This document shows, piece by piece, positions 3,553 through 31,414 of a stretch of 64,000 nt of DNA. A program made the translations under genes and the position numbers. The DNA comes from Brachyspira aalborgi (GTDB taxonomy: Bacteria; Spirochaetota; Brachyspiria; Brachyspirales; Brachyspiraceae): contig NZ_SAXU01000001.1 of assembly GCF_008016455.1 (NCBI RefSeq), positions 806,001 to 870,000 on the forward strand, read 5' to 3'. The notes beneath the pieces are model-generated. The model searched no databases. It was given only the letters and a program-made list of their open reading frames with translations, and was not told where the DNA came from. How positions within the stretch are numbered: the stretch's first letter is position 1; every line of letters starts with the position of its first letter.

Positions 3553-5593
3553 TATTGAATTTCTCAAATATTTTCTTTCTTCGTTTTTTGTCCGAATTCC
3601 ATAAAGCGAGTCCGAATACTATAACAGCTAAAGGAACTATAATTATATTTACAATTCTAACTAATAATTTAGAAATTTCGGGATTTATAATAACGCCGAA
3701 TAAGTTTAAACCTTTATAAGGCGGATTAAATATAGCTCCCTTTCTTCTTATGCTCATAAGTCCGACATCGCCAGCCATATAATCGACTAAATTCATTAAA
3801 AGTATTCTATTCACAGTATATGCGCTATTTTTAGCTATGTCGTAAGAACCTATAAGTATTATTTTTCCGTCAGTAGTAGAATTAATTCTATTTATATTTG
3901 CCAAATCCGATTGATTAGGAATATCTTTATTTAAAAAAGCGCTTTCCATTTTTCCTTCGGATACCGCTCCTATTAATCTTCTATATAATCTGTTTGCATC
4001 CGATGGCGCTCCAGACATAGAAGATGAAATATTTTGAGTTTCAGTCCAACTCTTAACGCTTGTATGAAATAAAGGAGTTATTTTTAATCCGTCTATATTC
4101 GTATTAATTAAAACTTCAGAAACCATCGGAACAAGAATGGCGTTTATACTTTTAGTTATATCGCTTTTAGGATTTATATTTTCCGTAGCTATTGCGGGAA
4201 CATAATATACCATCTGCTCTGGTGCGTTTTGCTCTCTTCTACTTCTATAACAATATTCGTCAAAAACCATATTCGTAGCGACAGTTAAACCATAATTTTG
4301 AATCATATTATTTAATCCGTTTGTAACGGGAACTAAAACAGGCTCGCCATATATTGGAGAATTAGGATTATTTTCATCCATTTCTACTCCGCTAATCATA
4401 AATAAAACGGGCTTGCCTCTCATTATAAATTGGTCTAGTTTATATAATTCGCTTTCAGTCCATTCAACTTTACCGCCCGCTATTATCAAAGCGTCTATAT
4501 TTGAAGGAATATCTTCTTTTGTTGTATCTATAACTTGATAATTATAATTCGCTTCAATTTCGCCTAAATATTCCGTAAAACTATTATATCTATCGTTTGG
4601 ATTTCCGCCGTATTGTTCGGGAATGTCGAAATACGGAGGCTCTCCATGTCCCGTTATATATCCTACAGTCGCTTTTATTCCAAGCATACCGTCAATATTT
4701 TTTAATATATCGTCTTTGATTGCGGAAAAATCGCCGTATAAAATTGAAGCCGTTGATAATTCTTTTATATCGTCTCCGTTTTCTAAAAATAATGAAAAAT
4801 AACCGCTTCCTTTATTTGCCACTATGTTTCCTTTTTCGTCTTTAATATCTTCCCACTCTAATTTTTTTATATTTAATTTTTTTAATAATTCTTCGTTATT
4901 AATTTCGTCTTCGGAGTTTACAATATTTATATTAGTGAACACCACTTTATTCATTAAATTTTTATTCGCTTCGTTTACGGCTTGCATTATTGATTCTGGA
5001 ACTAAATTTGCAGCTCCAATCGGAAGAAGTCCGTAAATTTCAGGCGAAGATATATAATAAACATTTAAATTATTTTCAAGTCTTTTTAATTTATCGTTTT
5101 TATCAATCATTTTTCTTATAACTGTGTCTATTCTATATTCTAATCCTTCCGTAGATTCTATAAAAGGAATAGTTTCGATAGAATCTCCATACAAAAAGGC
5201 AAGTCCCATATAAGCGACTTTAGTTTGAGTTTGGTCTCTCTCCAATACGCTAATTTGACTTGAGCTAATTCCATATTGATTAGCCAAAGACTGATTTTTT
5301 GAAGCGTCTATAATTTCAAAACTTATATTTTTTGATTTATATTCTTCAAAGATATCTCTTACATATTTTTCGTAAGTTGAAAAAGGCGGCGGAAGATTTG
5401 GAGTTATAAAAAACTTCACGCTCATAGGCTCTTTTATATTTTTTATTAGAGTTTTACTTTCTTTACTTAAAGAATAAACTTTATCTCTCGTTAAATCCAA
5501 AGAAGGATTAAATTGATTAATAATCGCATTGATTAAAATTATAATTATTAAAACTAAAATAAATGTTATGATTCTGTCTTTTTTCTTTGTCAT
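3536..5593 (-). CDS. GldG-like ABC-transporter accessory membrane protein
   Basis: The 685-residue protein has one N-terminal membrane helix (about 10-28), a large extracytoplasmic region resembling the GldG / ABC_transp_aux family, and a C-terminal helix (about 645-670) followed by a basic tail. A SLDLTRDKVYSLS segment just after the first helix is typical of GldG. Relatives act with a GldA-type ATPase and GldF-type permease. Neither gene is next to it here: it is first in its transcript, after a TAGGA ribosome site, with radA downstream. It may serve a transporter encoded elsewhere. Confidence 0.75.
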   Translation of the reverse strand: MTKKKDRIITFILVLIIIILINAIINQFNPSLDLTRDKVYSLSKESKTLIKNIKEPMSVKFFITPNLPPPFSTYEKYVRDIFEEYKSKNISFEIIDASKNQSLANQYGISSSQISVLERDQTQTKVAYMGLAFLYGDSIETIPFIESTEGLEYRIDTVIRKMIDKNDKLKRLENNLNVYYISSPEIYGLLPIGAANLVPESIMQAVNEANKNLMNKVVFTNINIVNSEDEINNEELLKKLNIKKLEWEDIKDEKGNIVANKGSGYFSLFLENGDDIKELSTASILYGDFSAIKDDILKNIDGMLGIKATVGYITGHGEPPYFDIPEQYGGNPNDRYNSFTEYLGEIEANYNYQVIDTTKEDIPSNIDALIIAGGKVEWTESELYKLDQFIMRGKPVLFMISGVEMDENNPNSPIYGEPVLVPVTNGLNNMIQNYGLTVATNMVFDEYCYRSRREQNAPEQMVYYVPAIATENINPKSDITKSINAILVPMVSEVLINTNIDGLKITPLFHTSVKSWTETQNISSSMSGAPSDANRLYRRLIGAVSEGKMESAFLNKDIPNQSDLANINRINSTTDGKIILIGSYDIAKNSAYTVNRILLMNLVDYMAGDVGLMSIRRKGAIFNPPYKGLNLFGVIINPEISKLLVRIVNIIIVPLAVIVFGLALWNSDKKRRKKIFEKFNNAEKE

Positions 5594-21817: not shown

Positions 21818-23872
21818 TTAATTAAATTTTTTATTCAATTCAAATATATTAATTTCTCCTACATTATTCAAATAATTAAAATTATAGTCGGTTAATTCGT
21901 TTTTAATTTTATCTATATCTTTATAATCAATCATTAAATAAAAATTATTTTCTTTAATGGAATTCAATTCGTTTCTATCATTTAAATATGAGTAATAAAG
22001 ATTAGTATTCAAATAATGAAAATCATAATAATTAATAAAAGATTTATAAGCGTAAACATTATAATTATTAGTTAAAACATATTTATCTTTATCAACAACT
22101 TCAAAATAAACAAATCTTTTAGAATTAGTTATATTAAATATATAAATTATTGATATTAAAGAAAGTAAAATAATTCTAATTTTTAAATTAGTAATAAAAC
22201 AAATAATTAATGGAATAAAAAATAATATAAATATATAACTTGATGCCGAATATCTTTCAAGTTTATACGGCGAAGTCAAATCTCCCAAAATTGCAAATAT
22301 TAATCCTAATAAAATAATAAATATTAATAATTTAAATTTTGATTTTTCTGCGATTATATTTAAATCTTTTTTCTTTATAATTTTTGATATTAAAATAAAA
22401 ACAAACAAAGTTAATAAAATTATTAATAATCCGTCAAAAGCTAAATCGTTAATATAATTAAATAATTTTCCCGAAAAAGCCAAAGAAGAAGACGCTCTAT
22501 TATTTGCATTAAATAAAGAAGCGAAAAAACTATTATATAATATTCTTGAGACAAATAAAGCCGAGATAAAAGCGAGCGCATAATATATTATTATTTTATA
22601 ACTTTTTATTTTTAATAAAGGATTTAATATCGCGTATTTATTTTTTAAGAATTCTAATTTATCAATATTTAAACAATAATTAAAAAATAACATTGCCGAT
22701 AAAATTAAAATAAATAATAATGAAGAATATAAAGTTAAATAACCAATTCCCGCGATTATTGAAGTTAAAATTAAATTTAGGATAGAATATTTATTATAAT
22801 AAATCGTATTCAAAACAAAATAAGTAATTACAATAAAGAAAGTTTCCTGCATTTGATAGGCTCTCAAAAACATAGAAAAACTTATTGATATTGGAGATAA
22901 TGAAAAAATTAATAAAGTAAATATTATAAATTCATTTTTATTTTCAAATATTAATTTTAAGATTTTAAATAAAAATATAAATGAAATAATTGAAAAAATG
23001 CAATTTAAAATCGTTCCTGTAATAATTATATTTTTAATATCAACCGCTTCTCTTCCGATAAAAGCTAATCTTAAAAAAGTATAATATAAATTGCTTATAA
23101 AAGGGTCGTTAGTGTCTTTATATAATCTCTTTATATCGTTTATGCAATCTTCTATGCTTGAATTATCAAATGTTAAATCTTTTAATATATCAAAACCTTT
23201 AATATTTTTATAATTATTAATTTTATCTTCATTTGCAAAAACTTTATAATTAGCAGCGCTTAAACTATAATATTCGTCCCAATACATACCTTCTTGTTTT
23301 GAAGCCCAGTAAATTCTTACGAATAAAGAAAATGATAATATTAAAAATAAAAAACTATATAAAATGTATTTTTTGTTAATTAAATTATAAAATTTATTAT
23401 AATAATAAATTTTAATATTATTCATTATAAATATTATTAAGATTGATAAATGTAATAATATAATTATCTCTATAATATTCTTTTTTATTTTTAATGTATA
23501 ATTAATATTGTCAATTTTATCTTCTTCAATAATTTTTTTATCTGAAATAAAAATTCCAAAAGGACTACCAAAATAATCCATTTTAATTTCTTTCACAAAA
23601 TCTGGTAAGTTTGATAAATCAGGATAAACTCCGTAAATATCGTTATTTCTAAATGTTTTGTCATAATATCTAATTCTAAAATGATAAACATAATTAGTTA
23701 TATTTTCCGAATTATTTAACTTCATTGTTTTATCAACAACTAAACTAAAATCACTTAAATATCCAATTCTATTTTTAGAACCAAGAATTTGTAAAACGAT
23801 TAGAGTAATAATTGTAATAATCACAAACGGAATATAAATTTTTAGAAATAAATTTTTGTTTTTAGATTTCAT
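21818..23872 (-). CDS. Polytopic membrane glycosyltransferase-like protein (GT-C / GT39-like)
   Basis: The 684-residue protein has an N-terminal membrane helix, an extracytoplasmic segment (about 30-130), then about ten hydrophobic segments. The motif RIYWASKQEGMYWDEYYSLS near residue 190 has the acidic pair after a membrane helix seen in GT-C enzymes that use lipid-linked sugars, such as ArnT or PMT relatives. This supports a role in surface glycan or lipid modification, with donor and acceptor unknown. AAGGA lies 9 nt before the ATG. Expression is probably controlled by the repeat-containing attenuator immediately upstream. Confidence 0.65.
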   Translation of the reverse strand: MKSKNKNLFLKIYIPFVIITIITLIVLQILGSKNRIGYLSDFSLVVDKTMKLNNSENITNYVYHFRIRYYDKTFRNNDIYGVYPDLSNLPDFVKEIKMDYFGSPFGIFISDKKIIEEDKIDNINYTLKIKKNIIEIIILLHLSILIIFIMNNIKIYYYNKFYNLINKKYILYSFLFLILSFSLFVRIYWASKQEGMYWDEYYSLSAANYKVFANEDKINNYKNIKGFDILKDLTFDNSSIEDCINDIKRLYKDTNDPFISNLYYTFLRLAFIGREAVDIKNIIITGTILNCIFSIISFIFLFKILKLIFENKNEFIIFTLLIFSLSPISISFSMFLRAYQMQETFFIVITYFVLNTIYYNKYSILNLILTSIIAGIGYLTLYSSLLFILILSAMLFFNYCLNIDKLEFLKNKYAILNPLLKIKSYKIIIYYALAFISALFVSRILYNSFFASLFNANNRASSSLAFSGKLFNYINDLAFDGLLIILLTLFVFILISKIIKKKDLNIIAEKSKFKLLIFIILLGLIFAILGDLTSPYKLERYSASSYIFILFFIPLIICFITNLKIRIILLSLISIIYIFNITNSKRFVYFEVVDKDKYVLTNNYNVYAYKSFINYYDFHYLNTNLYYSYLNDRNELNSIKENNFYLMIDYKDIDKIKNELTDYNFNYLNNVGEINIFELNKKFN

Positions 23873-23955
23873 AGAGCGATATCCTTAAAAGTTAATTTTT
23901 GTAGACGCAAGAGAAAGCGTTTAAATGTTTCAAATAATTCTTTAGTTTTGCAATG

Positions 23956-23985
23956 AAAAAACAGCCAAAAATTATAATAATGGCT
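23956..23985 (-). terminator. Intrinsic terminator in leader A, with the leader stop codon in its loop
   Basis: Stem AGCCA/TGGCT, a 13-nt loop containing TAA, then G and TTTTTT. It lies directly after the pentanucleotide repeats and about 85 nt before the glycosyltransferase ATG. The equivalent stem in leader B has different bases that still pair, supporting a conserved structure. Confidence 0.6.
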
Positions 23986-24037
23986 TGTATTGTATTGTAT
24001 TGTATTGTATTGTATTGTAGAATTTACATCCGCTCAT
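23972..24037 (-). CDS. Leader peptide A containing pentanucleotide repeats (21 aa)
   Basis: AAAGGAG sits 9 nt before ATG. The frame reads MSGCKF, then YNTIQ twice, then YKPLL and TAA. The repeats supply a five-codon period because the 5-bp unit is not a multiple of three. The stop lies in the terminator loop. Gain of one repeat would move the leader into a frame that stays open to a TGA overlapping the glycosyltransferase ATG (ATGA). Loss of one would give a frame that reads through the stem and stops about 20 nt before that ATG. Confidence 0.7.
   Translation of the reverse strand: MSGCKFYNTIQYNTIQYKPLL
23985..24019 (-). repeat. Pentanucleotide tandem repeat, (TACAA) x7 on the minus strand
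   Basis: Seven perfect copies inside leader ORF A. Perfect short tandem repeats of this length are prone to slipped-strand mispairing. The last base overlaps the outer base of the terminator stem. Confidence 0.95.
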
Positions 24038-24092
24038 TTTTCTTTTCTCCTTTTTTCGACAATTACAAATTACAATCAATTAATTTAAGAAA

Positions 24093-24121
24093 ATTATAAC
24101 ATATTTAATAAAAAATGTCAA
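24093..24121 (-). promoter_or_regulatory. Promoter of leader A and the glycosyltransferase gene
   Basis: TTGACA (24121-24116), 17 bp, TATAAT (24098-24093). The sequence around the -10 (ATATGTTATAATTT) is nearly identical to that of promoter B at 30593, as expected if both leaders derive from one ancestor. Confidence 0.75.
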
Positions 24122-24219
24122 TACTAATGATTTTATTTTATTGAAAAATAATCGGTTTTATTATATTATTAAAGCGTATTTATAATTTTATTAATTTCAA
24201 TTTTAAGGAGAATAAAATA

Positions 24220-25182
24220 ATGGTTAAATTTTCAGATTTAGGTTTAGTAAATAGCCGAGGGCTTTTTCAAAAAGCTGTAAGCGGAGGATATGCAATTCCC
24301 GCTTTCAATTTCAATAATATGGAGCAACTTCAGGCAATAATTCAAGCCTGCGTTGAAACAAAAAGCCCCGTTATACTTCAAGTTTCTTCAGGCGCTAGAA
24401 AATATGCCAATCAAACTTTATTAAGATATATGGCGCAAGGAGCGGTTGAATATGCAAAAGAATTGGGAGTAAATGTTCCTATAGTTTTACATTTAGACCA
24501 TGGCGACACTTTAGAACTTTGTAAAAGTTGTATTGAATATGGTTTTTCTTCCGTTATGATAGACGGCAGTCATCATGATTATAATAAAAATGTAGAATTG
24601 ACAAAAAGCGTTGTAGAATATGCTCATAAATACGATGTCACAGTCGAAGGCGAATTGGGAGTTTTAGCTGGAGTTGAAGACGATGTTGTAGCCGAACAGC
24701 ATACTTACACTCGCCCCGAAGAAGTTGAAGATTTTGTTAAAAAAACGGGAGTAGATTCTCTTGCAATATCTATTGGAACGAGTCATGGAGCTTATAAATT
24801 TAAACCAGGACAGAATCCTAAAATAAGGTTGGATATTCTTAAAGAGATAGAGAAAAAAATTCCAGGATTTCCTATAGTTTTGCATGGTTCTTCAAGCGTT
24901 CCACAAGAATATGTTAAAATTATTAACGAAAACGGCGGAAAATTAGACGATGCAATTGGAATACCAGAAGAGCAATTAAGAGAAGCCTCAAAAAGCGCGG
25001 TTTGTAAAATCAATATAGACAGCGATTCAAGACTAGCAATGACGGCGGCTATAAGAAAAGTATTTCATGATGACCCAAAAGAATTCGACCCAAGAAAATA
25101 TTTGGGACCTGCAAGAGATGAAATGAAAAAACTTTATATGCATAAAATAAATAATGTTTTAGGCAGTAATAATAAAATATAA
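24220..25182 (+). CDS. fba: Class II fructose-1,6-bisphosphate aldolase
   Basis: A zinc-dependent glycolytic aldolase that interconverts fructose bisphosphate and two triose phosphates. The zinc/catalytic segment HLDHGD lies near residues 87-92, VEGELG near 143, and a GSSSVP segment with HGSS lies near 225. The length of 320 aa matches the family. AAGGAG lies just before the ATG. A tiny basic gene follows after 9 nt and is probably cotranscribed. Confidence 0.96.
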   Translation: MVKFSDLGLVNSRGLFQKAVSGGYAIPAFNFNNMEQLQAIIQACVETKSPVILQVSSGARKYANQTLLRYMAQGAVEYAKELGVNVPIVLHLDHGDTLELCKSCIEYGFSSVMIDGSHHDYNKNVELTKSVVEYAHKYDVTVEGELGVLAGVEDDVVAEQHTYTRPEEVEDFVKKTGVDSLAISIGTSHGAYKFKPGQNPKIRLDILKEIEKKIPGFPIVLHGSSSVPQEYVKIINENGGKLDDAIGIPEEQLREASKSAVCKINIDSDSRLAMTAAIRKVFHDDPKEFDPRKYLGPARDEMKKLYMHKINNVLGSNNKI

Positions 25183-25191
25183 GGAGATATT

Positions 25192-25284
25192 ATGGGAAAG
25201 CAACATAGAAAAGTTGTAAAAAGAAAGAGAGCGGCAAGAAGAATAAAAAGACAAAAAGACGCTCTAAACGGCAAAACAAAATAA
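25192..25284 (+). CDS. Very small basic protein (30 aa)
   Basis: AAGGAG is 6 nt before the ATG. The product begins MGKQHRKVVKRKRAARRIKR and more than half of its residues are Lys or Arg. The composition suggests RNA or ribosome binding. It lies directly after the aldolase gene and before a hairpin. No family was identified with certainty. Confidence 0.65.
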   Translation: MGKQHRKVVKRKRAARRIKRQKDALNGKTK

Positions 25285-25306
25285 TTAAAATAAGTTTATA
25301 TAGCGA

Positions 25307-25329
25307 GGGCGTAAGTTATTCTTATGCCC
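25307..25329 (+). terminator. Probable terminator after the aldolase and small basic genes
   Basis: A 9-bp stem GGGCGTAAG / CTTATGCCC with one G-T pair and a 5-nt loop, followed by an imperfect T-rich stretch (TTAATTTATTATT). Confidence 0.6.
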
Positions 25330-25376
25330 TTAATTTATTATTGATAAAATTATTTGATAAAAAAGGATTTGATAAA

Positions 25377-26279
25377 ATGAAAAAGACAATATTTTTTATA
25401 ATTTTAATTTGGACGATTTTAATTTCATGTTCAAATAAATCTAATAAATCGCCTTTGGCAATACAAACCGATTTTGGAAGAAAAGATAACGCTGTTGCAA
25501 GTATGTATGGCGTTGCTTTGAGCGTTGATAAAGATTTGAAAGTTTACGATTTAACTCATGAAATTCCCGCTTATAATATTTGGGAGGCGGCTTTAAGATT
25601 GGAGCAGACGGCAAGATATTGGCCTTCGGGAACTGTATTTATTAATGTTGTCGACCCTGGAGTTGGAACGGAAAGAAAATCTGTAGTAATGAAAACTAAA
25701 AATAATTATTATTTCGTCACTCCCGATAATGGCGCTTTAACTTTTGTGGCGGAAAGTTTAGGAATTGAAGAAGTCAGAGAGATAGACGAAGCGATTAACA
25801 GAAGAGAAAATTCCGAAGAATCTTACACATTTCATGGGCGAGATGTTTATGTTTATACGGGCGCAAAATTAGCTTCAAAACAAATTACTTTTGAAAAAGT
25901 TGGAAAATCTTTAGGAACTAATATAACTAAAATAGATTACGAAAAAGCGAGATTTGAAGACGGAAAATTTTTCGCAAATATTCCAATTTTGGATATTCAA
26001 TACGGAAATGTTTGGAGTTCTTTACCAAGAAAATTAATGATAGATAACGGAATTCAAATTGGCGATATTTTAAATGTTAAAATTTATAATAATAATTCGC
26101 TTGTATGGACGGGAGACATTAAACTTGTAAATACATTCGGCGATGTGGCAGAAAATGATAATTTGGCTTATTTTAATTCAGAGCTTAATTTTTCGATTGC
26201 GATAAATATGGGAAATTTTTCAGAGAGGTATAGGGTTTACAGCGGTGCGGAATGGAGTATTGAGGTTGCTAAAATATAA
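25377..26279 (+). CDS. Lipoprotein of the SAM hydroxide adenosyltransferase (DUF62) family
   Basis: The mature region matches the family that hydrolyses S-adenosylmethionine or halogenates it: LAIQTDFGRKDNAVASMYG near the start, VDPGVGTERK, PDNGALT and FHGRDV. The start at 25377 follows an AAAGGA; the open frame extends to 25341 but without a ribosome site. The N-terminus is a clear lipoprotein signal ending in ILISC, so the protein should be anchored outside the cytoplasm, which is unexpected for an enzyme using SAM. It may act on another substrate or have become structural. Confidence 0.82.
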   Translation: MKKTIFFIILIWTILISCSNKSNKSPLAIQTDFGRKDNAVASMYGVALSVDKDLKVYDLTHEIPAYNIWEAALRLEQTARYWPSGTVFINVVDPGVGTERKSVVMKTKNNYYFVTPDNGALTFVAESLGIEEVREIDEAINRRENSEESYTFHGRDVYVYTGAKLASKQITFEKVGKSLGTNITKIDYEKARFEDGKFFANIPILDIQYGNVWSSLPRKLMIDNGIQIGDILNVKIYNNNSLVWTGDIKLVNTFGDVAENDNLAYFNSELNFSIAINMGNFSERYRVYSGAEWSIEVAKI

Positions 26280-26284
26280 TTAAT

Positions 26285-26404
26285 TTAAGCATGCCAGATA
26301 TAGAATGATAGATTTGAAATTGAAAGAATTTTTATACCACAATTTATATATAAACTAAAATTTATTGTAATAATAAAATTAATTAATAAAATAAATATTG
26401 TCAT
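26285..26404 (-). CDS. Small hydrophobic peptide (39 aa)
   Basis: A very strong ribosome site (AAGGAGG, 6 nt from ATG) precedes a frame starting MTIFILLINFIITINFSLYI, a single membrane helix, with a short tail ending WHA. The open frame continues further upstream, but the ribosome site supports this ATG. It could be a small membrane toxin or regulatory peptide, but no antisense RNA or antitoxin was identified. Confidence 0.45.
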   Translation of the reverse strand: MTIFILLINFIITINFSLYINCGIKILSISNLSFYIWHA

Positions 26405-26534
26405 AATATCCTCCTTAAAATTTATTGATATCTTTAATAGCACACTCACGCTAAAAGCATGCTTAAACCAATTATATTTCCATTTCAAAGAACCTGTATA
26501 GTAATATAACAAAAAATAAGTCAATTTTATAAAT

Positions 26535-26918
26535 TCAATTATTATTTAAATTGCTATATAAAGTGGATGTACAATTTCCACATATTTTACTACCAATTAC
26601 CGCAGCTATAACCCTCATACCTCTTTCATTAAAATCATTATCATTTTCTGTGTATATAACTTCTAAATTATTTGTATTGGGATATTTGCCATAATAAATA
26701 TTCAAGTTGCTATTACAAATAGTAGATTTTACTTCTACATCGTATAATTTTAAATTTGTATAATTATATTTATTACCCAAATTTATTTTACTACATTTAG
26801 ACATTCCATATACATCTATAGATATAATATTATTATATTTTGAAGTAATTTTAGTATCAAAAATATGATAATCAGAATCTCCATTAAACTCATATAATAG
26901 TAAAGCTTTTCCAATAAT
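26535..26918 (-). CDS. Hypothetical protein (127 aa), possible ATT start
   Basis: The first ATG of this frame is at 26804, but the frame is open and protein-like for another 38 codons upstream, to just after a stop. An ATT at 26918 lies 5 nt after AAAAGG, a good ribosome-site distance. The product would start IIGKALLLYEFNGDSDYH and contains ICNSN and SKICGNC near its C-terminus. Either a rare ATT start is used or an ATG was lost by mutation and the gene is decaying. No family was recognised. It lies in a region of gene debris. Confidence 0.5.
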   Translation of the reverse strand: MIGKALLLYEFNGDSDYHIFDTKITSKYNNIISIDVYGMSKCSKINLGNKYNYTNLKLYDVEVKSTICNSNLNIYYGKYPNTNNLEVIYTENDNDFNERGMRVIAAVIGSKICGNCTSTLYSNLNNN

Positions 26919-27023
26919 CGCTACCTTTTAATTTAATCAAATTTTCTAATTAATTAATATGAATTATACATTATATTAAGAATTATGTCAATACTTTTAT
27001 TAGTAAATTATTTATTTTAATTT

Positions 27024-27128
27024 TCATAAATAACTACTATTAATACTATCTTTTGGTATCCAACCTAAAACATTTTTAACTTTTCCAATATTTGCATAAA
27101 TAACAGCATAGCCTATAGTTTGATTACA
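27024..27128 (-). pseudogene. C-terminal remnant of an NDP-sugar epimerase
   Basis: The 34 codons before the TGA read QTIGYAVIYANIGKVKNVL then GWIPKDSI. This matches the end of UDP-glucuronate/UDP-galactose epimerase-like proteins (a QPGDV-like stretch, YANI.K.K..LGW.PK). No start codon or upstream portion remains. It indicates an eroded sugar-nucleotide gene next to the glycan genes. Confidence 0.45.
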
Positions 27129-27183
27129 TTATTGATTACATGATTTTTGAGTATTAACGATATATTTTTAATAGAGCTTATTT

Positions 27184-27882
27184 TTATAATAGTGTTGGAT
27201 TATTAAATTCATCATCTAATTCCTTTTGTTTTTGCTCTATTTCTCTATAGATATCATAAATTTCATTTTTCTCTTTTTCTATACTATACCCATTGATTTC
27301 TTTATGTATAACTTCTGATATTCTATTACAATAATTTGAAATATGCTTTATATATTTGTCAAATATAAATGAATAGTTGATACTTGATGTAGTTTGTGAG
27401 TATTTTAAATATTTAAAAATTGATTTTAATTTAGGGTAATATAGCTTATAAGAATTAGGAATATCTTTCTCATATTTTTCCAATAAAGCGATTATTTTAT
27501 TTATATTATCAGAATAACCTTTAACTATTTTATATATATCATATAAATAATAAAATTGTTGTGATAAACTGCCATTATCATTATTTATATTATAATAAAA
27601 TTTATCTAAATACTCTTCAGTAACTAATTTATCAATATAAAAATCAAATTCTTTGGATATATTAATACATCTATTAATTTTATTTAATTTAGACTGTAAT
27701 ATAAAACCTAGTATGAATATTAAAATTGGAACAATAGCTTCTATACCAACATGTATTATATCCAAATATGATGTTTTTGTTAGACTATAAATAGTATTAC
27801 TATTTAATCCAAAATTTGTTATCTCAGTATAATTAGTAATATAGTTTGTAATAAAATTAGTTAATATGATTTCATTTGTCAT
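27184..27882 (-). CDS. Hypothetical protein with one membrane helix and a helical cytoplasmic domain
   Basis: The product (232 aa) has an N-terminal Asn/Thr/Ile-rich stretch, a membrane helix at about residues 46-68 (VGIEAIVPILIFILGFILQ), then a long mostly helical soluble part ending in a Glu/Lys coiled coil. GGAG lies 8 nt before the ATG. No family was recognised. It stands alone in a region of broken genes and may be a recent arrival. Confidence 0.65.
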   Translation of the reverse strand: MTNEIILTNFITNYITNYTEITNFGLNSNTIYSLTKTSYLDIIHVGIEAIVPILIFILGFILQSKLNKINRCINISKEFDFYIDKLVTEEYLDKFYYNINNDNGSLSQQFYYLYDIYKIVKGYSDNINKIIALLEKYEKDIPNSYKLYYPKLKSIFKYLKYSQTTSSINYSFIFDKYIKHISNYCNRISEVIHKEINGYSIEKEKNEIYDIYREIEQKQKELDDEFNNPTLL

Positions 27883-28034
27883 CTATAATTCTCCATAAAT
27901 AATAGATTAAATAATCATAATTCAAATATTATATTATTTCAATAATGCTAAAATAATTATAGTTTCATTTAATAGAGTTATACTAAAATCTTATATTCTC
28001 ACTCAAAGCCTAATTATAAATTAATTAATATTTC

Positions 28035-30404
28035 TCATTTAAAAAATTTCCTCTTAAACCTCTCCCTCAATTTCCTAATAGGTATCCACCAAGCCAACTT
28101 ATTAATATTCTTTTCATTTATTTTTAATGAAATCTTAATTCCAAATAAATAAAACATTAAATAATCTTTCGTATTATAAATGCCAAATAATTTTATCCAA
28201 TTCTGTTTTTCATTAATATAATTCCGTAAATAATGTATCTCGCTTTCTTTCTCATTATTTTCTTCAATCAAATAATTTATTATATCGTCTCTATAATTAT
28301 ATTTTTCTTTTTTATTTTCTAATGCATTTTTTAACCAATTCAAGGATTTTACTTTTTCTATTTCAAGTTTTTTATTAATTTCTGTATAATCCATTTTTAG
28401 TAAAAAATCAGTATTATGCATAACTTCCGACAAATCGCTAATTATTCTGTTTTTTATATCAAACATATTCGATAAACTTTCTAATCTTGAAATTCCGCTT
28501 CCTTCGTTTAATATGCATACAAAAGGTTTATTAAAAATTATGGCAAAACAACTTCCATGAAAAGAATCGGTTATTAATAATTCAGAATTTTTTATAGTCC
28601 AAAGCCAATCTTCAATACTTATTTCTTCATTATCCTTAATTAAATATTCAATATCGAGGTTTAATTTATTTAAAATAAAATTAAGTTCATTTTCAATATT
28701 TGTATAAAGAGAATAAACGACAATAAATTTATTATTTTTATTTTTCATTGATTTGCTAACTAAATAATCGTAATCGTTAAGTAAAAATACTGGGTCTAAT
28801 ACATGAGTAGCTTCGACATCAAAATCTTCTTTACAAATTTTTACGCCGTCATATTCTCTAACCGAAACTTTATCAAATTGTTTTAAATAATACTTAAAAA
28901 GTATTTTATCTTTTAATTCTCCTTCAAAATAATTTATTCCAAAAGACGATGAATAAGCAATTTTATTTTTGAAGTTATATGCAAAATTTAGAAAATAAAA
29001 TTGAGCCGTTTCACCATGTGCTTTTGCTCGCCAAACTTGGTCAGAACCGACTACGAAATTATCGCATTTTTCATTTAATTTTTCCAATTCTTCTTTTGAA
29101 AAATATTCGTTTGCAATATTCAAATATTTTAAACCAAATCGATTGCCTAGCATATTGGAATATAAACTATTTTTATAACAGTAAAGATTATTATAAATTA
29201 TTAACGGATTATAACCCAAATCTTCTATAGTTTTATATAAAGCGTAAACCGTCAATATCGCTCCAAAATTATTTTGAAAAAGCATATTTGCTATTGCCAC
29301 ATTATATTTTGGATTATTTGAATTATTATATAAAGTCTCAAAATCTTCTTTATCCAAATTATCAAAAAAATATTTTCTGCTCGCAAATATAGGAACATTT
29401 CCGCCCAAACCTCCATTAGAAATATTATAAACTCTTTTATAATTAAAATTTGATTGATTAATATTTTCAAAAATTGATTTTCCTTTAATACTATTTACCA
29501 AAACCAAAGAAACTCCTTTATCGTCATTATCCTCAACGCCCCAATAATCGCCAATCGTAATATCGCCAGCTCGCTCAAATTTTCTATATTTACAACGAAT
29601 GCACTCTTCTTTGCAAGAAATATGCTCCAAAAACGCTCTCATGTAAAAATCTTCGCTCTTTTTGTCTATATATTCGATTTCCGCCGATTTCAAGAAACAC
29701 CCACCCAACCAACCTAGGGCTTTTTTGTCTCTAAAGCTTATATATTCTATTTTTGCAGTATCGTTAAATTTCTCCAATAAATATTTTCTCCAAACTTTTT
29801 GCGGAACTACGCTATTGCAAAGCAAATCAACCGTTATTAAATTTTCGTAATCTCTACCTAAATAAAAATTTAATGCAGAAACTTGACAAGGCGTCCCTGA
29901 AAATAAAACCAATTTTTTATCGTTTAATAATCTCTTTATTTCAGAAAAAATATTTCCCAAAGAACTTTCGACATATTTCGAGCCTCTCAATTTGTCCAAA
30001 TCTTTTTTGTCTTCAATTATTATATGTTCTACACCAAGCCAATCTTCCCGCCAACTTGCGCCGCATACAAAACCGTTATTTTCAAAAACATAATCGGCAA
30101 TTAAAGTAAACATTCCGCCCGAAGACGATTTCATTCTTATTTCATCGCTCGCCCTTACATCGTAGAATTCTTGATTAAAGTCGGTTTTAAAATTATCGTT
30201 TAGAGCATGGCATTTTTTAACGCATAAACCGCAATCTGTGCATAATTTTTCATCGATAACAGGACAATGAAAGCCTTCTTTAGTTTCAATCATTTTAATG
30301 CAATTATGAGGACAAACTTGTGCGCATACCGAACAACCCGTGCATTCTTTTTTGTCTAAAATATTAATATTATTACCGTTATTTTTTTCATGGAGTTTAA
30401 TCAT
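28035..30404 (-). CDS. Fused FrhB-type Fe-S oxidoreductase and polysaccharide pyruvyl transferase
   Basis: Three parts are visible: a two-cluster ferredoxin domain with Cys motifs CTGCSVCAQVCPHNC (21-35) and CTDCGLCVKKC (55-65); an FrhB-like domain (about 75-330); and a polysaccharide pyruvyl transferase-like domain (about 365-650) with FVVGSDQVWR and ITDSFHGSCFA. A basic C-terminal tail follows. Pyruvyl transferases add ketal pyruvate to surface glycans, and FrhB domains are found in glycan clusters of many anaerobes. AAGGAG is 8 nt before the ATG. It is the gene controlled by repeat-containing leader B. Confidence 0.85.
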   Translation of the reverse strand: MIKLHEKNNGNNINILDKKECTGCSVCAQVCPHNCIKMIETKEGFHCPVIDEKLCTDCGLCVKKCHALNDNFKTDFNQEFYDVRASDEIRMKSSSGGMFTLIADYVFENNGFVCGASWREDWLGVEHIIIEDKKDLDKLRGSKYVESSLGNIFSEIKRLLNDKKLVLFSGTPCQVSALNFYLGRDYENLITVDLLCNSVVPQKVWRKYLLEKFNDTAKIEYISFRDKKALGWLGGCFLKSAEIEYIDKKSEDFYMRAFLEHISCKEECIRCKYRKFERAGDITIGDYWGVEDNDDKGVSLVLVNSIKGKSIFENINQSNFNYKRVYNISNGGLGGNVPIFASRKYFFDNLDKEDFETLYNNSNNPKYNVAIANMLFQNNFGAILTVYALYKTIEDLGYNPLIIYNNLYCYKNSLYSNMLGNRFGLKYLNIANEYFSKEELEKLNEKCDNFVVGSDQVWRAKAHGETAQFYFLNFAYNFKNKIAYSSSFGINYFEGELKDKILFKYYLKQFDKVSVREYDGVKICKEDFDVEATHVLDPVFLLNDYDYLVSKSMKNKNNKFIVVYSLYTNIENELNFILNKLNLDIEYLIKDNEEISIEDWLWTIKNSELLITDSFHGSCFAIIFNKPFVCILNEGSGISRLESLSNMFDIKNRIISDLSEVMHNTDFLLKMDYTEINKKLEIEKVKSLNWLKNALENKKEKYNYRDDIINYLIEENNEKESEIHYLRNYINEKQNWIKLFGIYNTKDYLMFYLFGIKISLKINEKNINKLAWWIPIRKLRERFKRKFFK

Positions 30405-30466
30405 TTTGAAAACTCCTTAATATAAAAATAATTAGATAATTCTTTAATAAATAATTTTCTGCAATG

Positions 30467-30498
30467 AAAAAATCGCCGAAAAAATTTACAATGCGGCG
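30467..30498 (-). terminator. Intrinsic terminator in leader B, with the leader stop codon in its loop
   Basis: Stem CGCCG/CGGCG, a 15-nt loop containing TAA, then A and TTTTTT. The T-run is followed by CATTGCA, exactly as in leader A. All five stem pairs are kept although three positions differ from leader A (only the central bases are shared). Confidence 0.65.
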
Positions 30499-30560
30499 TG
30501 TGTAGTGTAGTGTAGTGTAGTGTAGTGTAGTGTAGTGTAGTGTAGTGGCAAACTAAACAT
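30486..30560 (-). CDS. Leader peptide B containing pentanucleotide repeats (24 aa)
   Basis: AGGAA lies 6 nt before the ATG. The frame reads MFSLP, three copies of LHYTT, then HAAL and TAA, with the stop in the terminator loop. Adding one 5-bp repeat opens a frame through the terminator to a TGA that overlaps the ATG of the pyruvyltransferase fusion (ATGA). Removing one opens a frame that reads past that ATG and stops two codons into the gene. Confidence 0.7.
   Translation of the reverse strand: MFSLPLHYTTLHYTTLHYTTHAAL
30501..30545 (-). repeat. Pentanucleotide tandem repeat, (CTACA) x9 on the minus strand
   Basis: Nine perfect copies form most of leader ORF B. The repeat unit differs from that of leader A while position and function in the leader are the same. 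Confidence 0.95.
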
Positions 30561-30592
30561 ATAAAATTCCTACTTTATTTTTTAATGAATAA

Positions 30593-30620
30593 ATTATAAC
30601 ATATTAATAAAAAAAGTCAA
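30593..30620 (-). promoter_or_regulatory. Promoter of leader B and the pyruvyltransferase fusion
   Basis: TTGACT (30620-30615), 16 bp, TATAAT (30598-30593), with the same AATATGTTATAATTT context as promoter A. Confidence 0.75.
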
Positions 30621-30661
30621 TACTTTAATTTTCTTCTTTTATTATTAATAATTATAAAATA

Positions 30662-31414
30662 TTATTTTATATTTTTTAAAGAATTTCTCATATACTCGAC
30701 TACATTTATATTATAAATATTATTCAATAATTCTAAATTAAAATTCTCAATATCGCCAAAATATATAATCTCTCCTTTATGTAAAAGCAATATTTTATCG
30801 GCAAAATTTAAAGCGTTATTGATATCATGCATCACGGCTATAATGCATCTAAAATCTTTATTAACCCATTCTTTCAAATTATAAATAAGTTCAATTTGAC
30901 TATTTAAGTCTAAATGATTAGTAGGTTCATCCATTAATATAATTTTTGGATTTTGAGCGAAAGCTCTAGCTAAAAAAACTTTTTGAAGCTCGCCACAAGA
31001 AAGTCGATTTATAAGTTTATCTTTCAAATGAATAATATTTAATTTTTCTAAACATTCAAATACAAATTCTTTATCTTCTTTGGTTGGAATTGATAAAAGT
31101 TTATCTTTAAAATTTGCGTATCTTCCCAACATAACCGTATCAAAAACATTATAATCAAAATATATTTCTGAAGACTGACTTAAAAAAGATACGGATTTAT
31201 AAACTTCAATATTTTTTATATTTTTATTATTAATAAATATTGAGCCTTGAAAATCTAAAATATTGCATAAACATTTTAATAAAGTAGTTTTTCCCGAACC
31301 GTTTGGACCTATAATACATAATCTTTCGTTTTCAAATAACTTAAACGATATGTTTTTTAATATTTTTTTATTATTGTAATCGTAAGAAAAAGATAAATTA
31401 TTAACTTCAATCAT
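30662..31414 (-). CDS. btuD: ABC transporter ATP-binding protein, vitamin B12 uptake
   Basis: The 250-residue ATPase has Walker A GPNGSGKTT near residue 36, an LSCGELQKVFLARA signature near 138, and Walker B IILMDEPTNHLD near 158. It belongs to the Fe-siderophore/B12 class. Its start overlaps the permease stop by 4 nt. Assignment to B12 rests on the cobalamin riboswitch at the head of the operon; the protein alone could serve heme or siderophore uptake. It is the last gene of the operon. Confidence 0.85.
   Translation of the reverse strand: MIEVNNLSFSYDYNNKKILKNISFKLFENERLCIIGPNGSGKTTLLKCLCNILDFQGSIFINNKNIKNIEVYKSVSFLSQSSEIYFDYNVFDTVMLGRYANFKDKLLSIPTKEDKEFVFECLEKLNIIHLKDKLINRLSCGELQKVFLARAFAQNPKIILMDEPTNHLDLNSQIELIYNLKEWVNKDFRCIIAVMHDINNALNFADKILLLHKGEIIYFGDIENFNLELLNNIYNINVVEYMRNSLKNIK

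Follow-up and report, generated by a model that had tools for sequence, protein, structure and literature searches.

A pentanucleotide-repeat leader of Brachyspira aalborgi is probably one of many phase-variable leader-ORF frame switches

On the minus strand of the window (the whole 64,000-nucleotide stretch analysed, from the B. aalborgi genome G000), a gene for a membrane protein is preceded by a short ORF that carries seven tandem copies of TACAA. This raises the question whether the number of repeats sets the expression of the gene, and by which mechanism. The original prediction was a phase-variable attenuator, in which repeat length decides whether ribosomes cross a terminator. Comparison with related leaders points to this leader (leader A) being probably one copy of a leader-ORF frame switch that is present many times in this genome and also elsewhere in the genus. 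We favour a role for hairpins as an added attenuation in a subset of these leaders.

The predicted order of promoter, ribosome site, 21-codon ORF, seven TACAA copies, hairpin with TAA in the loop, T6 run and gene was fully present on the minus strand (Table 1). The leader ORF has a start and a ribosome site of its own behind the promoter. It opens with the codons ATG AGC GGA TGT AAA TTC, continues through (TACAA)7 into GCCATTATTATAATTTTTGGCTGTTTTTTCATTGCA and is followed after approximately 80 nt by the ATG of the gene. As in leader B (window 30,380-30,640), the array lies inside this separate ORF and outside the coding sequence of the controlled gene, and the tandem unit is not a multiple of 3. 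The predicted copy-number arithmetic was also reproduced: at n=7, as assembled, the stop is the TAA in the hairpin loop, at n=8 the leader frame ends as an ATGA overlapping the gene start, and at n=6 the first stop base lies 22 nt upstream of the gene ATG. Leader B likewise overlaps its gene in one phase (ATGA at 30,404-30,401).

Table 1. Features of leaders A and B (positions in the window)
Feature	Position	Strand	Remarks
Promoter, leader A	24,093-24,121	-	TTGACA-17-TATAAT, TG before -10; 12/12 match; -35 TTGACA at 24,121-24,116, 17-nt spacer, extended -10 TGTTATAAT ending at 24,093
Shine-Dalgarno GGAG, leader ORF A	24,047-24,050	-	sequence
Leader ORF A	23,972-24,037	-	21 codons at n=7 (MSGCKFYNTIQYNTIQYKPLL); ATG 24,037; stop TAA (23,974-23,972) in hairpin loop
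TACAA x7 array	23,985-24,019	-	7 perfect copies, 100% identity
Leader A hairpin	23,963-23,985	-	AGCCA (23,985-23,981) / TGGCT (23,967-23,963); 13-nt loop with TAA; fold -5.9 kcal/mol
T6 run 3' of leader A hairpin	23,956-23,961	-	sequence; kept in paralogues
CATTGCA motif	23,949-23,955	-	common to leaders A, B and relatives in other species
ATGA at gene start	23,869-23,872	-	overlap with leader stop in n=8 (3k+2) phase
Gene behind leader A	21,818-23,872	-	684-aa multi-spanning membrane protein; ATG 23,872; glycosyltransferase-C-like by resemblance only
Promoter, leader B	30,593-30,620	-	TTGACT-16-TATAAT
Leader ORF B	30,486-30,560	-	24 codons at n=9; stop TAA in hairpin loop
TACAC/CACTA x9 array, leader B	30,500-30,544	-	perfect-array scan
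Leader B hairpin	30,474-30,498	-	CGCCG/CGGCG, TAA in loop; -6.2 kcal/mol; then T6 (30,472-30,467), CATTGCA (30,466-30,460)
Gene behind leader B	28,035-30,404	-	789 aa, F420 hydrogenase-like + polysaccharide pyruvyl transferase; Pfam PF04230, PF04432, PF04422

The gene behind leader A had been called a glycosyltransferase gene. Its product resembles one, but matched no family in Pfam or NCBIfam, so the name reflects look-alike features; a search of the genome contigs with the glycosyltransferase query found no relative. Another leader-controlled gene (L050) does match PMT_2. An Rfam scan of 23,800-30,800 gave no match to a riboswitch, T-box or ribosomal-protein leader, and a known RNA element was rejected as the identity of the leader. 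Also in the window, at 25,341-26,279 and 3' of the aldolase gene, is a gene for a SAM hydroxide adenosyltransferase with a lipoprotein-like signal sequence.

TACAA arrays were found at 7 places in G000, the reversed control pattern at none. The design of leader A recurs in paralogues, giving four TACAA leaders with 7, 9, 9 and 7 copies. Using the tail TTTTTCATTGCA as a query, further leaders were found, leader B among them, with arrays of CACTA (6 to 23 copies) and AAGCC (8 copies), all in the order promoter, ORF, array, hairpin with TAA in the loop, T-run, CATTGCA and gene; no fewer than 16 related hairpin leaders occur in G000. Promoters match the consensus at 11-12 of 12 positions in nearly all of its leaders. 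The leader ATG of L049, L013, L125, L131, L132, L144, L145, L146 and L037 lies 6-9 nt past the -10 element, and these approximately nine leaders therefore probably have leaderless starts. The leader pattern is conserved in the genus members G010, G011, G013 and G016. Matches to TTTTTTCATTGCA in other Brachyspira genomes were mostly ordinary coding DNA, except in G002 and G024, and the TACAA array of G014 (L017) lies outside the leader design. The motif ATTGCA, present in most leaders, occurs 14 times in 3.9 kb of sequence between array and gene, 6.6-fold above the 2.1 expected (P ~6e-8), and TTTCATTGCA is also found in leaders of distantly related Brachyspira species.

Copy number thus varies between near-identical paralogues, as in the TACAA and CACTA sets, and between orthologues (9, 19, 10 and 12 copies in B. 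pilosicoli-type lipoprotein leaders). From these paralogues and orthologues, with one genome per species, we infer copy-number switching. Scaffold gaps and contig ends fall on arrays (L145:653-924 and 4283-4463; G000 contigs C3 and C4), so that assembled copy numbers may be unreliable.

The number of arrays was estimated from the window plus 20 evenly spaced 20-kb stretches, together 464 kb of G000, counting perfect arrays with a unit of 3-9 bp and a length of at least 20 bp. There were 22, 18 with a 5-bp and 4 with a 7-bp unit, 2 of the 22 being second copies across a scaffold gap; units of 3, 4, 6, 8 or 9 bp were absent from the 464 kb. Extrapolation to the 2.5-Mb genome gives approximately 100 perfect 5- or 7-bp arrays. 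When 200 kb was sampled from each of two further Brachyspira genomes, one array was found in G010, not in an evident leader, and three in G009, all showing the leader layout. Products encoded behind leaders include polysaccharide pyruvyl transferase (leader B), glycosyltransferase family 11, PMT_2, MBOAT acyltransferase, radical SAM proteins, methyltransferases (including FkbM and TylF types), RmlC, esterase, PTS EIIC and lipoproteins. Judged by these annotations, the leader-controlled genes would mostly have surface glycan and envelope functions.

Nearly every leader has one frame that runs to the gene start (ATGA, or a stop within ~25 nt of the ATG), the others stopping early. The frame test asked of 25 leaders, from which close relatives had mostly been removed, whether any frame is free of stops from the array at least as far as 25 nt before the gene ATG. 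Such a gene-reaching frame was present in 21 of the 25, versus 6.2 expected from dinucleotide shuffles (P ~5e-15) and 3.5 expected from 55 array-free upstream regions of G000 (P ~9e-17); as the leaders share ancestry and the set was part sample, part pattern-selected, these P values overstate strength and independence, but the excess is large. L055, L013, L106 and L017 fell short of the gene. The gene-reaching frame mostly differs from that of the gene and ends in ATGA or at most 20 nt from the start, so it is not simply a decayed N terminus. This overlap with ATGA or the gene start was kept despite differing 3' segments and downstream genes. L011/L054 are an exception to the separation of array and gene, as one phase there fuses the two ORFs.

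Some leaders are damaged: L059 has neither an intact stem nor an overlap, L063 and L064, at contig ends, have no 5' stem, and L095 carries 2 copies. These would suit a view of the leaders as neutral repeats or decaying coding DNA that regulate nothing; this view is nevertheless very improbable given frame conservation far above chance, leader frames that differ from the gene frame in the ATGA cases, and consensus promoters. The leader peptide was also considered as a conserved functional protein and set aside: in G002 a loop indel moves the hydrophobic frame (AIIIIFGCFFIAKLKNY) out of step with the array, and leader B has a different one. Hairpin and overlap persist in both.

The ATGA overlap follows at n=8, as predicted. 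It had been treated as secondary, yet a gene-reaching frame is conserved in almost all leaders, most of them without a terminator. As the most general conserved feature, the ATGA or near overlap, which is also found in hairpin-free leaders (e.g. L125, L145, L130 and L089), might suggest that translational coupling is all there is, the switch acting at initiation of the gene and the hairpin being incidental or tuning the level. However, the genes have good Shine-Dalgarno sequences of their own, and no sequestration of these was seen: their accessibility equalled that of shuffles (mean rank 0.54), by which ribosome-site sequestration was rejected as the basis of coupling. Reinitiation is thus not necessarily required, and the gene might be translated independently. 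Moreover, the long frame of the orthologous B. pilosicoli-type lipoprotein leaders ends 30-85 nt upstream of the gene, so coupling is not the whole story there. Coupling as the only mechanism seems to us rather unlikely.

The hairpin of leader A folds well below its shuffles (mean -1.67 +/- 1.66 kcal/mol, z -2.55), but it is weak, and a standard terminator scan did not call it; the scan missed the leader hairpins because loops were limited to 8 nt. Of the predicted terminator, stem, loop TAA and T6 are in place, on a weak fold with a long loop. The stem is kept by paired changes, AGCCA/TGGCT in leader A corresponding to CGCCG/CGGCG in leader B and its relatives, and other stems occur at the equal position (TCTCTAT/ATAGAGA in L049, CCCTTT/AAAGGG in L012). 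Pairing was compared by eye, as MAFFT alignment of the short hairpins misplaced the stems. A hairpin with T-run between array and gene was found in 9 of 24 leaders and in 3 of 74 array-free control upstream regions (P = 1e-4), and in 6 of 21 leaders after relatives were dropped (P = 0.003). An attenuator is therefore a real component of a subset of the leaders. In addition, the loop-stop and pre-hairpin-stop phases now hold 12 of the 16 hairpin leaders of G000 (7.0 expected, P = 0.008), a hint that they stand apart from the others and presumably are OFF.

The closest known system is pil1/pil3 of Streptococcus gallolyticus (Danne et al. 2014, PMC3894217), where a premature terminator follows a leader-peptide ORF that carries GCAGA repeats. 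In pil1, repeat changes lengthen the leader peptide and ribosomes then open the terminator, as established with variants, mutants (terminator deletion, leader start knockout, stop codons) and chloramphenicol (PMC3894217). Expression there is HIGH when the leader ends within or past the hairpin or 4 bp ahead of it and LOW when it stops at least 28 nt upstream, the low phase stopping 39-49 nt before a strong hairpin of -18.7 kcal/mol (PMC3894217). Leader A shares with pil1/pil3 the pentanucleotide array in a short ORF with its own ribosome site, the upstream promoter and the hairpin plus T-run before the gene; out-of-frame repeat changes that lengthen the leader, and control of surface structures, are further likenesses. 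In contrast to pil1, the array of leader A adjoins a weak hairpin whose loop holds the stop, and the gene start is overlapped in a third phase. All stops of leader A are in the loop or at least 68 nt past the hairpin, none upstream of it, so that all three phases place ribosomes on or past the hairpin. By the pil1 rules every phase would then open it, and attenuation by itself would not turn n=7 OFF.

The pil1 architecture itself is found in four orthologous B. pilosicoli-type lipoprotein leaders, the clearest cases of a terminator. Their short frames end at most 12 nt from the array, approximately 80-90 nt before a hairpin of -20 kcal/mol that is crossed by one frame (two in L107). A phase that stops clear of the hairpin, with the others in or past it, was seen in L106-L110 and not in leader A.

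These observations bear on a pure transcription attenuator, in which the loop stop at n=7 leads to termination while ribosomes cross at n=6 and n=8, both ON. The conserved hairpin and T6 with paired stem changes, the enrichment of hairpins, the phases in which most hairpin leaders now stand, the proof of attenuation in pil1 and the strong hairpins of the lipoprotein leaders all speak for it. Nevertheless, we consider it doubtful as a full account: pil1 expression is HIGH with the stop within the hairpin or 4 bp ahead of it, leader A has a weak hairpin and no phase that stops clear of it, and most leaders have a gene-reaching frame without a terminator. What stands of the original prediction is the repeat-length-dependent leader frame, conserved in about two dozen leaders, together with the enriched hairpins; n=7 as the terminated phase does not follow from pil1, and the bias of 12 in 16 is one weak point in its favour.

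Leaders without an intrinsic terminator would be accounted for by Rho-dependent polarity, with an untranslated gap of 80-200 nt in the OFF phase permitting Rho termination. Rho is encoded in the genome, and OFF phases leave long gaps while ON phases leave none. However, the loop-stop gap of leader A is just ~100 nt and this leader has a hairpin of its own, and Rho polarity appears slightly less likely still than the two alternatives above. Attenuation, coupling and Rho polarity are partial mechanisms and not mutually exclusive.

The frame switch that we prefer would combine them. A strong promoter lies before a short ORF with a 5- or 7-bp array, in which gain or loss of a unit changes the leader frame; copy number would change by slipped-strand mispairing. 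In the ON state leader translation would reach the gene with no untranslated gap, RNA polymerase would not be terminated (at the leader hairpin where one exists, elsewhere perhaps by Rho), and the terminating ribosome could restart at the overlapping start codon. In the OFF or low state an early stop would leave a gap in which the hairpin or Rho can act, and the gene would be without a coupled ribosome. For leader A, n=8 (3k+2) would be fully ON, n=6 (3k) intermediate and n=7 (3k+1, as assembled) lowest. The repeat-bearing leaders probably switch genes, largely those for cell-surface sugars, on and off at random, and do so to an unusually large extent. More tentatively, and with somewhat less than an even chance in our estimation, approximately 100 independently slipping 5- and 7-bp switches, many with three distinct frame outcomes (loop stop, stop just before the ribosome site, ATGA), may give graded three-state control of the surface-sugar repertoire by combined attenuation and translational coupling.

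Parts of this design are known from other bacteria. In the E. coli pyrBI attenuator, leader translation through the terminator prevents hairpin formation, as might occur in leader A, but pyrBI responds to UTP via polymerase pausing and has neither a repeat nor heritable switching. In meningococcal siaD a repeat-tract frameshift ends translation early and intracistronic Rho termination results; there the tract is inside the gene itself, without a leader ORF or start-codon overlap. Haemophilus influenzae has many phase-variable surface-sugar genes in one genome, the tetranucleotide contingency loci lic1, lic2A and lex2, with 4-bp repeats in the coding region instead of 5- or 7-bp repeats in a separate leader ORF.

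Since control by a repeat-driven leader frame and a terminator was already demonstrated in pil1/pil3, no new principle is involved. As far as our literature search shows, the presence in Brachyspira, the scale (two loci in S. gallolyticus versus probably ~100 here, with many repeat sequences), the exclusive 5- and 7-bp units and the three outcomes of loop stop, near-Shine-Dalgarno stop and ATGA are new; an open-access search found no paper on such repeats in Brachyspira. If the reading is correct, a single genome of this gut spirochaete would exceed the two leader-type phase-variable switches of S. gallolyticus by a factor of tens, a clonal population could show very many surface-glycan combinations, and phase-variable expression would be predicted for many Brachyspira genes not known as such. 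Natural paralogue sets, with the same leader but differing copy number, hairpin and ATGA, allow a direct test of how attenuation, coupling and Rho polarity share the work.

Several further arrays were observed. AGAGA x52 (L130:8884-9143; G000:C1:133884-134143) lies at the 3' end of the ORF directly upstream of rmlC and overlaps rmlC by ATGA in one phase. GCAGA x18 (L129:4974-5063) and GAGAC x8 (L130:19906-19945) have similar flanks; the GCAGA array is at the C-terminal end of an ORF with a 'IVWFIPVKKLRD' motif and would therefore vary the C terminus. In G024, a leader with the heptanucleotide CAGCAAA x10 (L089) stands before a gene for a family 2-type glycosyltransferase; one phase of the leader runs to ATGA and the other phases stop at once. 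In G021, CACTA leaders (L112, L119 and L127), each with one long frame, precede paralogous genes for lipoproteins that are sialidase-like by eye.
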